From: Anaerolineae bacterium
Lineage (GTDB): Bacteria; Chloroflexota; Anaerolineae; Anaerolineales; Villigracilaceae
NCBI GenBank assembly: GCA_017303655.1
Contig: JAFLCE010000033.1
Span: forward strand, 1 to 38,475
Length of the DNA: 38,475 nucleotides
Direction: 5' to 3'
Shown: positions 7,216-10,170 of the stretch, in pieces
How positions within the stretch are numbered: position 1 is the stretch's first letter
How the letters are laid out: every line of letters starts with the position of its first letter
The notes under the pieces: generated by a model
What the model saw: only the letters and a program-made list of their open reading frames with translations
Database searches by the model: none
What the model was told of the DNA's origin: nothing
Program-made: the position numbers and the translations under genes

Positions 7216-7899
7216 CTATAATGGTGTTGCTTCAATCGAATGGAACATACCCAGTATATTCCGTTTACTCTTCAGCACTTTTATGCCTGCCGATTGCACC
7301 AGATCTAATGGGTTTTGATTCCAACGGCATCCTGCATGGTTTTCGTAGTGTTGATATTCATGGCGGTCTTGATAATTGGCAAGCCACGGTATGGAGCTAT
7401 GACCATGTTCCAGAAGCAGGATCAAGCCGTTTGGTCGGCAGACGCGTTTCATTTCATCCAATGCTTTGAGTGGGTTGGGAAATGTACACGTGGACAAGGT
7501 CGAGACCACCGTGTCAAAACTTCCGTCGGGAAATTCGAGTTTCTCAGCGTCCATCACTACAAAGTTTACGTTCAATCCGTTTTTGGTTGCATTCTCATGG
7601 GCAACTTCCAGCATCTTTGGGCTTAGGTCAACAGCCGTGATGTCATTACCAACTGGGAGGAAGGGAATGTTAGAGCCCGTTCCACATGCCACTTCCAAAA
7701 TTTTCCCCTTTGCTTTTGAAAGTAGATTCTTTTTTAGCCGCGCCACACCGAGAATATGTTGGTCGAACCAGACTTTTTTCTCGTATTGATCGGCGATCTT
7801 ATCATAGGCATTTTGTATTTGAGGTGCGGTCAACTTTGCGTTGTACGGAATGCGTTGAGGCTTGCAGGTTTTGCCTTCGCTTGTTGTTATCGTTTTCAT
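7216..7899 (-). CDS. Class I SAM-dependent methyltransferase
   Basis: A soluble Rossmann-fold methyltransferase of 227 residues, UbiE/Methyltransf_11 type. Motif I is KILEVACGTGSNIPFLP (about residues 66-82), the acidic end of strand 2 is ITAVDLSPKMLEVA, and the motif after strand 4 is FDTVVSTLSTCTF, followed by LILLLEHG. The substrate cannot be told; similar proteins act on small molecules, lipids or quinones. AAGGAG lies 5 bases before the ATG. A strong promoter (TTGACT, 16 bases, TACAAT) with an operator-like palindrome lies directly upstream, and a TetR regulator gene is divergent. This is a classical arrangement for a repressor controlling its neighbour. Confidence 0.9.
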   Translation of the reverse strand: MKTITTSEGKTCKPQRIPYNAKLTAPQIQNAYDKIADQYEKKVWFDQHILGVARLKKNLLSKAKGKILEVACGTGSNIPFLPVGNDITAVDLSPKMLEVAHENATKNGLNVNFVVMDAEKLEFPDGSFDTVVSTLSTCTFPNPLKALDEMKRVCRPNGLILLLEHGHSSIPWLANYQDRHEYQHYENHAGCRWNQNPLDLVQSAGIKVLKSKRNILGMFHSIEATPL

Positions 7900-7912
7900 G
7901 ATTGCTCCTTTT

Positions 7913-7956
7913 TGTTATACTATGTAACATTGTAGTCAGCCCGCCATGCAAGTCAA
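7913..7956 (-). promoter_or_regulatory. Methyltransferase promoter with overlapping palindrome
   Basis: On the minus strand a -35 TTGACT (7951-7956) and -10 TACAAT (7929-7934) are separated by 16 bases. A 17-base palindrome with TGTTA/TAACA arms (7913-7929) touches the last base of the -10 and covers the start-site region. This is the expected place for a TetR operator. Confidence 0.7.
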
Positions 7957-7974
7957 TTGCGGATATGGTGTTGA

Positions 7975-7990
7975 TATAACAAAAGTTATA
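7975..7990. promoter_or_regulatory. Perfect palindrome, candidate TetR operator
   Basis: TATAAC-AAAA-GTTATA is a perfect 6+4+6 inverted repeat in the divergent intergenic region. It shares the GTTAT/ATAAC half-site with the palindrome over the methyltransferase promoter (GTTATA arm) and with the inner part of the hairpin at 8048-8063. Confidence 0.5.
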
Positions 7991-8023
7991 GAAAGCCATA
8001 TTTTGTAACAAAACTTGAGAGAA

Positions 8024-8078
8024 CGTCCCGAAGGGTGTTTTGAGTTGATAACCCCTTCGTTATAAAACCTTCGGGACG
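8024..8078 (+). promoter_or_regulatory. Nested 55-base inverted repeat in the leader of the TetR gene
   Basis: A perfect 11-bp outer stem CGTCCCGAAGG (8024-8034) / CCTTCGGGACG (8068-8078) is followed by TTTT/AAAA pairing (8038-8041 with 8064-8067) and an inner ATAAC-CCCTTC-GTTAT hairpin (8048-8063). It ends 27 bases before the TetR start codon. It could be an operator, a leader structure in mRNA or a decayed repeat. Confidence 0.6.
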
Positions 8079-8105
8079 GTTGGTGTTGTAAAGAACAGGA
8101 TAATC

Positions 8106-8717
8106 ATGCCAAGAAAATCATCCCCTATTACTATTGACCCTCGAGTCAAACGCACACGCCGTTTGTTGCGTGACGCGTTGGTTTCATTGATCCTGAAAAA
8201 AGACTTTGCTTCCATCACGATCAAAGAGGTCACAGAACGTGCCGAGGTAGCGTATATCACGTTCTATAGGCATTACGAGAGTCTCGATCAATTGTTGATG
8301 GAAGTGCTAAATGAAGGACTGGCGGAGTTGATGACTCACATCGAAACGCTGGCGAAACAGTCTGACACATCTGCCCTTGAAACGGAGGGTCGTCTCATTT
8401 TTGAATATATCGAGCAAAAAGCCGATCTTTTCCGCATCCTGCTCAAGAGCCAGAGCGTGACACGTGTCCGCAGGAAGGTTGTTGGGAATATCGCCGCCAT
8501 TTTCCAGAAGTCCTGCGTACCGTTGGAGAGATTGGGCGATCAGGTGACGATCAACATTGCATCGAATCACATTGCCACGTCTTTATTGTCGCTGATCGAG
8601 TGGTGGCTGGAAAATAATATGAAACCTTCCCCAATGGAGATGGGGAAGGTTTACAAGAGTTTGATCATTGATTCGACTGTGGGGGCGGTGAGTTCTTTAT
8701 CGGTCATATCGAGATAG
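8106..8717 (+). CDS. TetR/AcrR-family transcriptional regulator
   Basis: A 203-residue one-component repressor. The N-terminal helix-turn-helix is typical: TRRLLRDALVSLILKKDF, then ITIKEVTERAEVAYITFYRHYESLDQLL (about residues 15-65), with the TFYRHY recognition-helix end. The all-helical C-terminal ligand domain is variable, as usual, and its inducer is unknown. The gene is divergent from the methyltransferase gene; the shared 206-bp region holds several GTTAT/ATAAC inverted repeats that are candidate operators for self-regulation and methyltransferase control. The start codon has only a weak ribosome-binding site (AACAGGA). Confidence 0.92.
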   Translation: MPRKSSPITIDPRVKRTRRLLRDALVSLILKKDFASITIKEVTERAEVAYITFYRHYESLDQLLMEVLNEGLAELMTHIETLAKQSDTSALETEGRLIFEYIEQKADLFRILLKSQSVTRVRRKVVGNIAAIFQKSCVPLERLGDQVTINIASNHIATSLLSLIEWWLENNMKPSPMEMGKVYKSLIIDSTVGAVSSLSVISR

Positions 8718-8743
8718 GTGTCTCATCCATCTCATATTTTCAA

Positions 8744-9094
8744 TTAATACACAATCACCTGATCTGCCTCTACCGTCCAATCGCCAAGTAGATCCATATT
8801 GCCCATTTCGACTCCCTCTGTTAAATCATCCAGCCCGAGACCTCGGGCTTCAGAGCATGTGCCTCAGGTGGCGACCTTGCCGCGCTTCGCCAGCGACTTG
8901 ACAATGCGCTCGATGTTGTAATACCCATCTGGTGTTTTCTGCGCCTTGCGGGCGCAATAGACCGCATCGGCAACCAGGAAGACCTTTACCTGCACCTCAT
9001 CACGTTTGACCAGGTTCATTGCATGACGCGTGGCATTATAGGGGCGCTCATTTCCATACGGAGCATCATTAATCACGAATAGAATCTTCTTCAT
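8744..9094 (-). CDS. DsrE-family protein, probable selenoprotein (UxxC) with in-frame TGA
   Basis: A small soluble protein of the DsrE/DsrF-like sulfur-relay superfamily. Residues 1-76 (KKILFVINDAPYGNERPYNA.. to ..AKRGKVAT) end at a TGA (8864-8866). The same frame continues for 39 more codons to a TAA at 8744: GTCSEARGLGLDDLTEGVEM, then GNMDLLGDWTVEADQVIVY. That tail is what the family normally has after a CGTC motif, so TGA stands exactly where the first Cys of CxxC is expected. A hairpin with loop AGGUCU starts about 20 bases after the TGA, within the usual bacterial SECIS range. I read it as 116 aa with selenocysteine at 77. Role inferred: thiol/selenol redox or sulfur transfer. The alternative is a one-base nonsense mutation. 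AAGGA lies about 10 bases before the ATG. Confidence 0.8.
8830..8866 (-). promoter_or_regulatory. Bacterial SECIS-like hairpin following UGA
   Basis: Directly after the UGA on the minus strand the mRNA can form AGCCCG/CGGGCT (8832-8837 with 8844-8849), 6 bp, with apical loop AGGUCU, or 7 bp with loop GGUC. The loop begins 20 bases after UGA and has G in its first two positions, as published bacterial SECIS models require. From memory, the E. coli fdhF element has the same AGGUCU loop. CUCUG/CAGAG further out could add a lower stem. Confidence 0.7.
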
Positions 9095-9188
9095 TTGATA
9101 TCATCCTTTGTGGGCGTTTTGGTTTGGCGAATGGTTTCCCAATATTTTGGTATTCATAAGGGCGATTATACTGGAATTGATTTTGATA

Positions 9189-9256: not shown

Positions 9257-10156
9257 CTATGGCTCCAATGCATCACGCTTCAAGAAGATGATTAACGTAA
9301 CAGCTGCGATAGCCCACGAACCAATGAGCGCAGCGACCGATGGTCCCAGCAAGGTGTTTGGAGTGCCCTGTGTAAAAAACACATAGATGCCAGCGATCCC
9401 ATTAATGGCGCCGTGACCGATGACCGCGGGCCACACACTACCTGCCCGCAAGGTTGCCCAGCCGAGGAAGGTGCCCAGAGTGAACGTGAACCATATCATC
9501 GTTAGGATGCCCAGCCACGGCGCACCGGAATATTCCGTACCATAGTTGTGTCCCATGGCGATGATCGGCGCGTGCCACAGACCCCAGATGACACCCATCA
9601 AAAGCATTGCCTTTCTTCCACCAAGCGGCATTAACTTGGGTTGTAAATAGGCGCGCCAGCCGAACTCCTCGCCGAGAATGGGTATGGAGTTTATTAAGGG
9701 AGCAATGATGATTGCACTCAGAGTTTGCGACAGGACGATTATCCACGGATCAATCGCGGGCAAAGTCTGACCCGCCGCCGCAGCGGACTGTTCCATCAAC
9801 TTTGTTACCGCTGACAAGGTGGGGTCGTAATACTGCGGGAAAAACAAGAAGAAGAGTCCCATGCCCAGAAATGCAAAGATGACAGGAGCGATCCAGCAGA
9901 TCAGCCAATAAACCCAGCCCTTCTTGAAATTCGGATGCAGATAAAGTTCCTGCCAGCCTTCCCGCGTAATGAGGCGGGTAAGGATATGAGCAAGTGCAGG
10001 TGCGCCCATGTATCCCACCGCCAATGCGATGATGGTAGCAGGAGTTGGAGTGAGCCCGCCTGTTAGATAAAGTCCCAGTGCCACAAGCCAGGCGACACCA
10101 AAAGCAAATGCAATATAAATACCAACACGTTTCCAGTCTACAACATTGTTTTCCAT
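9257..10156 (-). CDS. CPBP-family intramembrane metalloprotease (second copy)
   Basis: A second CPBP/Rce1-like membrane protease. Motif 1 is LGEEFGWRAYLQPKL (EExxxR), motif 2 is WGLWHAPII (His after WGLW), and motif 3 is GHGAINGI (HxxxN), giving all the metal and catalytic residues in order, with about eight helices. It has a longer central loop (YYDPTLSAVTKLMEQSAAAA) than the 4124 copy. The start at 10156 is preferred over the ATG at 10162 because AAGGAG is then 7 bases away rather than 1. It follows the serine hydrolase gene by 14 bases, so they form a two-gene unit that ends at the terminator at 9189-9218. The substrate is unknown. Confidence 0.9.
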   Translation of the reverse strand: MENNVVDWKRVGIYIAFAFGVAWLVALGLYLTGGLTPTPATIIALAVGYMGAPALAHILTRLITREGWQELYLHPNFKKGWVYWLICWIAPVIFAFLGMGLFFLFFPQYYDPTLSAVTKLMEQSAAAAGQTLPAIDPWIIVLSQTLSAIIIAPLINSIPILGEEFGWRAYLQPKLMPLGGRKAMLLMGVIWGLWHAPIIAMGHNYGTEYSGAPWLGILTMIWFTFTLGTFLGWATLRAGSVWPAVIGHGAINGIAGIYVFFTQGTPNTLLGPSVAALIGSWAIAAVTLIIFLKRDALEP

Positions 10157-10170
10157 TTTCATTCTCCTTT

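Follow-up and report, generated by a model that had tools for sequence, protein, structure and literature searches.

A very probable selenoprotein of the DsrE family in Anaerolineae, with a conserved in-frame TGA and a covarying SECIS-like hairpin

Within the window, by which we mean the whole 38,475-nucleotide stretch of Anaerolineae DNA that was analysed, a gene that seems to be interrupted by a stop codon very probably makes a selenoprotein, judging from comparative sequence evidence. The gene encodes a 116-residue DsrE/YchN-type protein whose codon 77 is TGA. In our reading, this UGA would be decoded as selenocysteine (Sec) by tRNA-Sec and SelB owing to a hairpin that starts 14-15 nt downstream. 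A first-pass annotation of the same DNA had suggested a probable selenoprotein, and that suggestion is now supported by the Sec machinery of the genome, conservation of the TGA across relatives, constraint on the part of the gene beyond it and a covarying hairpin. The Anaerolineae proteins form a new clade of the published DsrE-like UxxC selenoproteins, set beside these by description.

Results

A DsrE-family gene with TGA at the first cysteine of the redox motif

The gene occupies the positions given by the first-pass annotation and lies on the minus strand (Table 1). Its frame comprises 76 codons 5' of the TGA and, as had been described, 39 codons 3' of it. With the TGA treated as a residue, the protein matched Pfam DsrE (PF02635) at 64.3 bits against a gathering cut-off of 22.7, over profile positions 1-115 of 116, so the family assignment made at first pass holds from end to end. 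Escherichia coli YchN (1jx7) gave a full-length sequence match with an E value of 7.7e-20 and a profile match of 1.8e-32, and the TGA aligned with the first Cys of the YchN C-K-T-C motif. This alignment, together with the TGC or TGT found in Cys homologues, bears out the view that TGA replaces the first Cys of a CxxC motif. A UxxC motif inside PF02635, the defining trait of the published DsrE-like UxxC selenoproteins, is present in the protein. None of the NCBIfam models reached its own cut-off with the window protein, and the TusD/DsrE equivalog model TIGR03012 scored 29.5 bits, below its cut-off of 89.25.

Table 1. Positions of the Sec-DsrE gene, its elements and its neighbours in the window
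Feature	Position	Strand	Basis or remark
Sec-DsrE gene, 116-aa DsrE/YchN-type protein	8744..9094	minus	Pfam DsrE and YchN matches run through the TGA
Start ATG	9094-9092	minus	sequence reading
Probable ribosome-binding site, AAGGA, 9 nt 5' of the ATG	9104..9108	minus	read from sequence alone
In-frame TGA, codon 77, U of U-G-T-C, probably read as selenocysteine	8866-8864	minus	TGA at 50 distinct sites, TGC/TGT in 40 Cys homologues
Codon 80, resolving-type Cys of UxxC	8855..8857	minus	invariant in the 13-protein Sec and Cys alignment (A3) and in 34 Sec genes
bSECIS-like hairpin, 7 bp in the window copy	8832..8849	minus	comparative, covariation
Five core pairs of the hairpin	8848-8844 with 8837-8833	minus	
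Hairpin loop GGUC	8842-8839	minus	
Stop TAA	8746-8744	minus	sequence reading
TetR gene, convergent with Sec-DsrE	8106-8717	plus	methyltransferase gene next
Rce1-like protease gene	9257-10162	minus	flanks the window Sec-DsrE gene

The TGA is conserved among close relatives and gives way to Cys codons in distant ones

Aligning homologues at this codon, as had been proposed at first pass, we found TGA at the codon 77 position of 50 distinct sites, a count that includes the window, and TGC or TGT in all 40 Cys copies read, which are more distant from the window gene. (Two of these Cys loci, L031 and L133, are one contig, and the 40 loci correspond to 39 places.) The public genome collection held 15 loci, of which six at 72-91% identity carry TGA and six at 52-54% carry TGC or TGT; the other three (L032-L034) are partial or weak and were not counted. 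Within the family-level group, all 33 matches 100 residues or longer, drawn from 32 of 152 genomes, have TGA, four short fragments being left uncounted; one of the 33, in G008, also has a late TAG. A sample of the phylum gave matches in 46 of 400 genomes, with internal TGA only in matches from the window's own family group, and a sample of the class gave matches in 50 of 396 genomes, including 22 long TGA matches in 19 genomes from 10 family-level groups. A protein search of plasmids returned 34 records, every one below 60% identity. Because the TGA is common to many separately assembled genomes, a base error in one assembly is ruled out, and with it the misread TGC or TGT at 8864-8866 that the first-pass annotation had raised.

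Copy number varies among these genomes. The assembly DYGV01 carries a Sec form (L020) plus a Cys form (L026), and two matches with internal TGA occur in each of G015 (C10, C19), G635 and G679, both copies having been read for G015 only. Some Sec-DsrE copies are decaying or damaged, with extra stops or in fragments (L136, L045, G110:C254, G791:C4), and a decayed copy is present in G707 of the class sample.

The part of the gene beyond the TGA is constrained

Across 34 ungapped Sec genes, pN/pS was 0.363 for the 39 codons after the TGA and 0.251 for the 70 codons before it, the tail thus being slightly looser than the front of the gene; this set omits L045, which has an extra TAG, and L054, whose 5' end is missing. 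An alignment of 13 Sec and Cys proteins shows no variation at Cys80, Ala83-Arg84-Gly85, Trp106 and Asp111. All 34 Sec genes retain Cys80 and Trp106, and a few of them depart from Ala83-Arg84-Gly85 or Asp111. The earlier claim that the tail is under selection is therefore upheld (pN/pS 0.36), with no decay save in two outlying copies, L136 and L045 (the latter by one late TAG).

These results bear on whether the gene is a pseudogene or yields a truncated product, the TGA being a true stop and the tail dead. Such a reading would leave a frame of 76 residues, and the class does contain decayed copies, such as L136, with both TGA and TAG, and the pieces in G791. Against it stand the TGA at 50 distinct sites, the constrained tail and the retention of Cys80 and Trp106 in every Sec gene of the set, and we regard it as extremely unlikely.

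A hairpin downstream of the UGA is conserved and covaries in Sec sites

The hairpin reported at first pass is present, with its GGUC loop and a stem of 7 bp (AGCCCGA-GGUC-UCGGGCU), and it starts 14-15 nt 3' of the UGA, not the 20 originally given. Of 50 distinct Sec sites, 46 form all five core pairs and four lack one of them, and none of 30 distinct Cys sites forms the full set; this census omits L136, and its pattern caught those 30 Cys sites among the 40 Cys loci. When hairpin codons were recoded at random with synonymous codons, the 5-bp stem arose in 3,399 of 100,000 trials (3.4%). The apical GG is also found in 27 of the 30 Cys sites, because it belongs to a Gly codon.

In an alignment of 36 distinct Sec sites, stem columns 19-24 pair with columns 29-34 in 93.1% of cells, compared with 25.4% when the same structure is laid on 19 of the 20 Cys sites (L089 was too divergent and was omitted). 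Sliding the partner by one to three columns left at most 49.5% of cells paired in Sec sites. Compensatory changes occur at two stem pairs, C-G being replaced by U-A at pair 21-32 in 9 of 36 Sec sites and both sides being changed at pair 19-34 in 2 of 36; at the innermost, sixth position (24-29), 12 of 36 sites do not pair. None of 500 shuffles reached the covariation score or the number of cells changed on both sides; the tally of two pairs with changes on both sides was reached by 145 of 500. RNAalifold folded the Sec sites into the same stem of five pairs; its only stem for the Cys sites was an unrelated one of two pairs. Furthermore, codons 83-87 show the lowest synonymous variation of any five-codon window in 34 Sec genes (0.272 versus a median of 0.698).

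Folding energy of single sequences gave a weak signal, with a mean z-score over a 42-nt stretch of -0.58 in 36 Sec sites and 0.03 in 20 Cys sites, and covariation was therefore used as the SECIS evidence instead. An Rfam scan of 8700-9120 returned zero matches at E values up to 1. The predicted hairpin is supported by conservation and covariation, not by stability.

The genome encodes the selenocysteine machinery

The assembly that holds the window spans 4.6 Mb in 172 contigs and is 93.6% complete and 5.8% contaminated. A search for selA, selB, selD and tRNA-Sec, which the first-pass annotation had named as the way to check its reading, found all four, and a genome devoid of the machinery is not what we observed. 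The tRNA-Sec scored 68.5 bits (cut-off 47) and has the anticodon TCA (ARAGORN); selB scored 343 bits (cut-off 242), selA 541 (cut-off 268) and selD 361 (cut-off 125), the last with one in-frame TGA. All of them lie on contigs other than the window's, with the 5.8% contamination of the assembly as a caveat. As a control, the models for tRNA-Sec, selB, selA and selD exceeded their cut-offs in 5, 2, 1 and 2 of 14 known genomes. The selD of the window's genome (L018, minus strand, near 2400) itself resembles a selenoprotein gene, with a TGA that would be read within CAGU near the N-terminus.

Within the family-level group, tRNA-Sec exceeded the cut-off in 133 of 152 genomes and in 29 of the 32 with a long Sec-DsrE match. 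The other three, G125, G145 and G150, seem to be without a tRNA-Sec over the cut-off (best E values 2.1e-7, 1.2e-7 and 1.2e-6); their assemblies are fragmented, with 190-460 contigs each.

Low-level read-through of UGA occurs in bacteria, and the codon could accordingly be imagined as being read as Cys or Trp, through a near-cognate tRNA or a changed code, with the hairpin a coincidence. The full Sec machinery of the genome argues against this, as does a hairpin found in TGA members and in none of the Cys sites of the census. TGA also serves as an ordinary stop, ending 9 of 30 long open reading frames in the window and acting as the gene's own terminator in 13 of 35 Sec-DsrE genes, which excludes a changed code. 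We consider such a reading very unlikely, and selenocysteine insertion remains our interpretation.

The Sec form may have arisen once from a Cys ancestor

When 34 Sec and 20 Cys proteins were placed in a tree, a branch with support of 100/94 set all Sec forms apart from the Cys forms. A second, quick tree, with 48 Sec and 39 Cys proteins and built from few columns, again required only one change (SH-aLRT 93). Both trees omit L045, L054 and L032-L034; the first also omits Cys loci missed by the motif pattern, and the second L088, which has a split frame, and L136. Because the outer groups carry Cys, the simplest reading of these trees, which do not include Sec members published from other phyla, would be a single Cys-to-Sec change within Anaerolineae.

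Many relatives lie near putative genes of sulfide oxidation

Of 50 distinct Sec loci, at least 17 have an ArsR-type gene no more than 1 kb upstream, at least 8 have a gene for a 4Fe-4S ferredoxin no more than 1 kb downstream, and at least 13 have, within 4 kb, a gene for a flavoprotein like sulfide quinone reductase (SQR); these flavoproteins are 50-100% identical to that of L096. At least 18 of 40 Cys loci also have an SQR-like flavoprotein gene within 4 kb, at 28-54% identity, a range in which the weaker matches may be other flavoproteins. Since the flanking sequence of many loci extends for just 1.5 kb, these counts are lower bounds. Among 21 long loci used as a control, 9 had ArsR, 7 ferredoxin and 6 SQR matches no farther than 4 kb from the TGA, as against 1, 0 and 0 in a similar amount of DNA beyond 4 kb. 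Among 22 other loci of the window's own genome, an SQR match occurred in two only, both of them fetched for their match to an SQR model. Against NF049943, the model for type III sulfide quinone reductase, the L096 flavoprotein reached 228.7 bits where the cut-off is 525; it also has a match to FCSD_central.

The gene row ArsR - Sec-DsrE - ferredoxin - SQR-like flavoprotein is seen in L096 (5631-8619), L095, L101 and L102 and, gapped, in L093; in L096 it is followed by two small zinc-ribbon genes. The ArsR proteins of L091, L093 and L096 keep Cys at about positions 14 and 85, a pattern that may point to redox or sulfur sensing.

Because many relatives adjoin an SQR-like flavoprotein gene, the usual setting of Sec-DsrE is probably sulfide or persulfide handling. 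The copy in the window belongs to the same clade and stands alone as an unlinked single gene: no ArsR, ferredoxin or SQR match lies within 4 kb of it, and the type III SQR selenoprotein model NF049943 reached at best 63.1 bits in its genome against the cut-off of 525, so that this model gives no SQR link there. For the window copy, therefore, the connection with sulfide is carried over from its relatives. Its own TetR and methyltransferase neighbours (7216-8717) recur near Sec-DsrE in L020, L022 (= L105), L091 and L092; in the last two they are arranged or oriented differently.

Sec77 may stand in for a persulfide-carrying cysteine

An AlphaFold model (pLDDT 91.5) places residue 77 at the end of a strand (73-77), just before a helix (78-83). 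Foldseek ranked YchN first (TM 0.88), with chains of DsrEFH and TusBCD among the next four. In weak HMMER alignments, the U77 column fell on Cys78 of TusD (2d1p_A; E 0.016) and on a Cys of DsrE (2hy5_A; residue 78 by count; E 0.17). In the literature on these complexes, sulfur was found on Cys78 of DsrE and none on DsrF or DsrH, and Cys78 of TusD was reported as the sole essential cysteine of TusBCD (PMC3397948). DsrE and TusD share the fold of the window protein, with their Cys78 under the U77 column; unlike it, both have Ala at the second Cys of CxxC, and they function in DsrEFH and TusBCD hexamers. YchN, the best fold match and a full-length sequence match, differs in having Cys-Lys-Thr-Cys where the window protein has Sec-Gly-Thr-Cys. 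A DsrE homologue inside an sqr cluster is known from Bacillus, namely YrkE (PMC9918477).

Given the SQR-like neighbours in relatives, the alignment of U77 with Cys78 and the YrkE precedent, we think that the Sec-DsrE protein handles sulfane sulfur, which for the window copy, without the sulfide neighbours, we infer. Sec77 would take the place of the persulfide-carrying Cys78 of TusD and DsrE. A persulfide or polysulfide would donate sulfane sulfur to the Sec77 selenolate, at the strand end and helix start, to give Se-SH. Either Cys80 of the UxxC motif would then resolve this Se-SH by forming a selenenylsulfide, with release of sulfide, or an acceptor would receive the sulfur. We favour this sequence of steps, Se-SH formation on Sec77 followed by resolution through Cys80 or sulfur hand-over, as the most likely mechanism, with somewhat better than even confidence. 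The first-pass suggestion of a Sec-dependent thiol or sulfur-relay enzyme likewise keeps the standing of a conjecture.

A competing view of function, which leaves the selenoprotein assignment intact, is that the protein is a general thiol-disulfide oxidoreductase or the partner of a regulator, not a sulfane-sulfur relay or reductase. In its favour, UxxC is a redox motif of a generic kind, YchN has no established function known to us, and the window copy has no SQR neighbours. U77 nevertheless maps to the persulfide Cys78, and SQR-like genes lie near 13 of the 50 Sec loci and 18 of the 40 Cys loci. We give this view roughly one chance in three, and sulfane-sulfur handling is the function we carry forward.

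Discussion

DsrE-like UxxC selenoproteins of the PF02635 family have been in print since 2005, from the Sargasso Sea and Desulfovibrio vulgaris (PMC1088965, PMC1794560, PMC9312934, PMC13188914), as the first-pass annotation had correctly noted. In the accounts available, two sequences came from the Sargasso Sea survey and one from a 2006 genome survey, and the GOS survey lists selenoproteins termed DsrE 1 (two sequences) and DsrE 2 (19 sequences) (PMC2398784); a review calls the functions of DsrE-like selenoproteins largely unknown. As described there, these proteins share with ours the Pfam family, the UxxC motif and a UGA with a downstream bSECIS. They differ in source, since the named members come from a marine metagenome and D. 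vulgaris, not from Chloroflexota. Among papers on DsrE/YchN, on selenoproteins in Anaerolineae or Chloroflexota, and on DsrE or selenoproteins together with quinone oxidoreductase or sulfide, judged partly by title or abstract, we found none on this clade.

DsrE-like selenoproteins have been a minor entry in selenoprotein lists, and the clade described here comprises 50 distinct sites together with Cys relatives. Less expected are its breadth, its apparent single origin and the neighbours that recur beside Sec and Cys relatives alike. Tentatively, and with odds against it, one can picture an Anaerolineae sulfide-oxidation module (ArsR - Sec-DsrE - ferredoxin - SQR-like flavoprotein) in which a selenopersulfide (Se-SH) on Sec77 serves as the sulfur-carrying intermediate, Sec having replaced Cys a single time in an ancestor of much of the class.

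A gene caller that takes TGA as a stop would cut Sec-DsrE at 76 residues; despite its apparent stop codon, the gene is very probably whole. With a Sec clade, its Cys relatives, a covarying hairpin and a sulfide-oxidation neighbourhood in many relatives, the question of why selenium is used here becomes testable by comparing Sec and Cys forms. If the proposed function is true, these bacteria would be using selenium for sulfane-sulfur relay or persulfide reduction.
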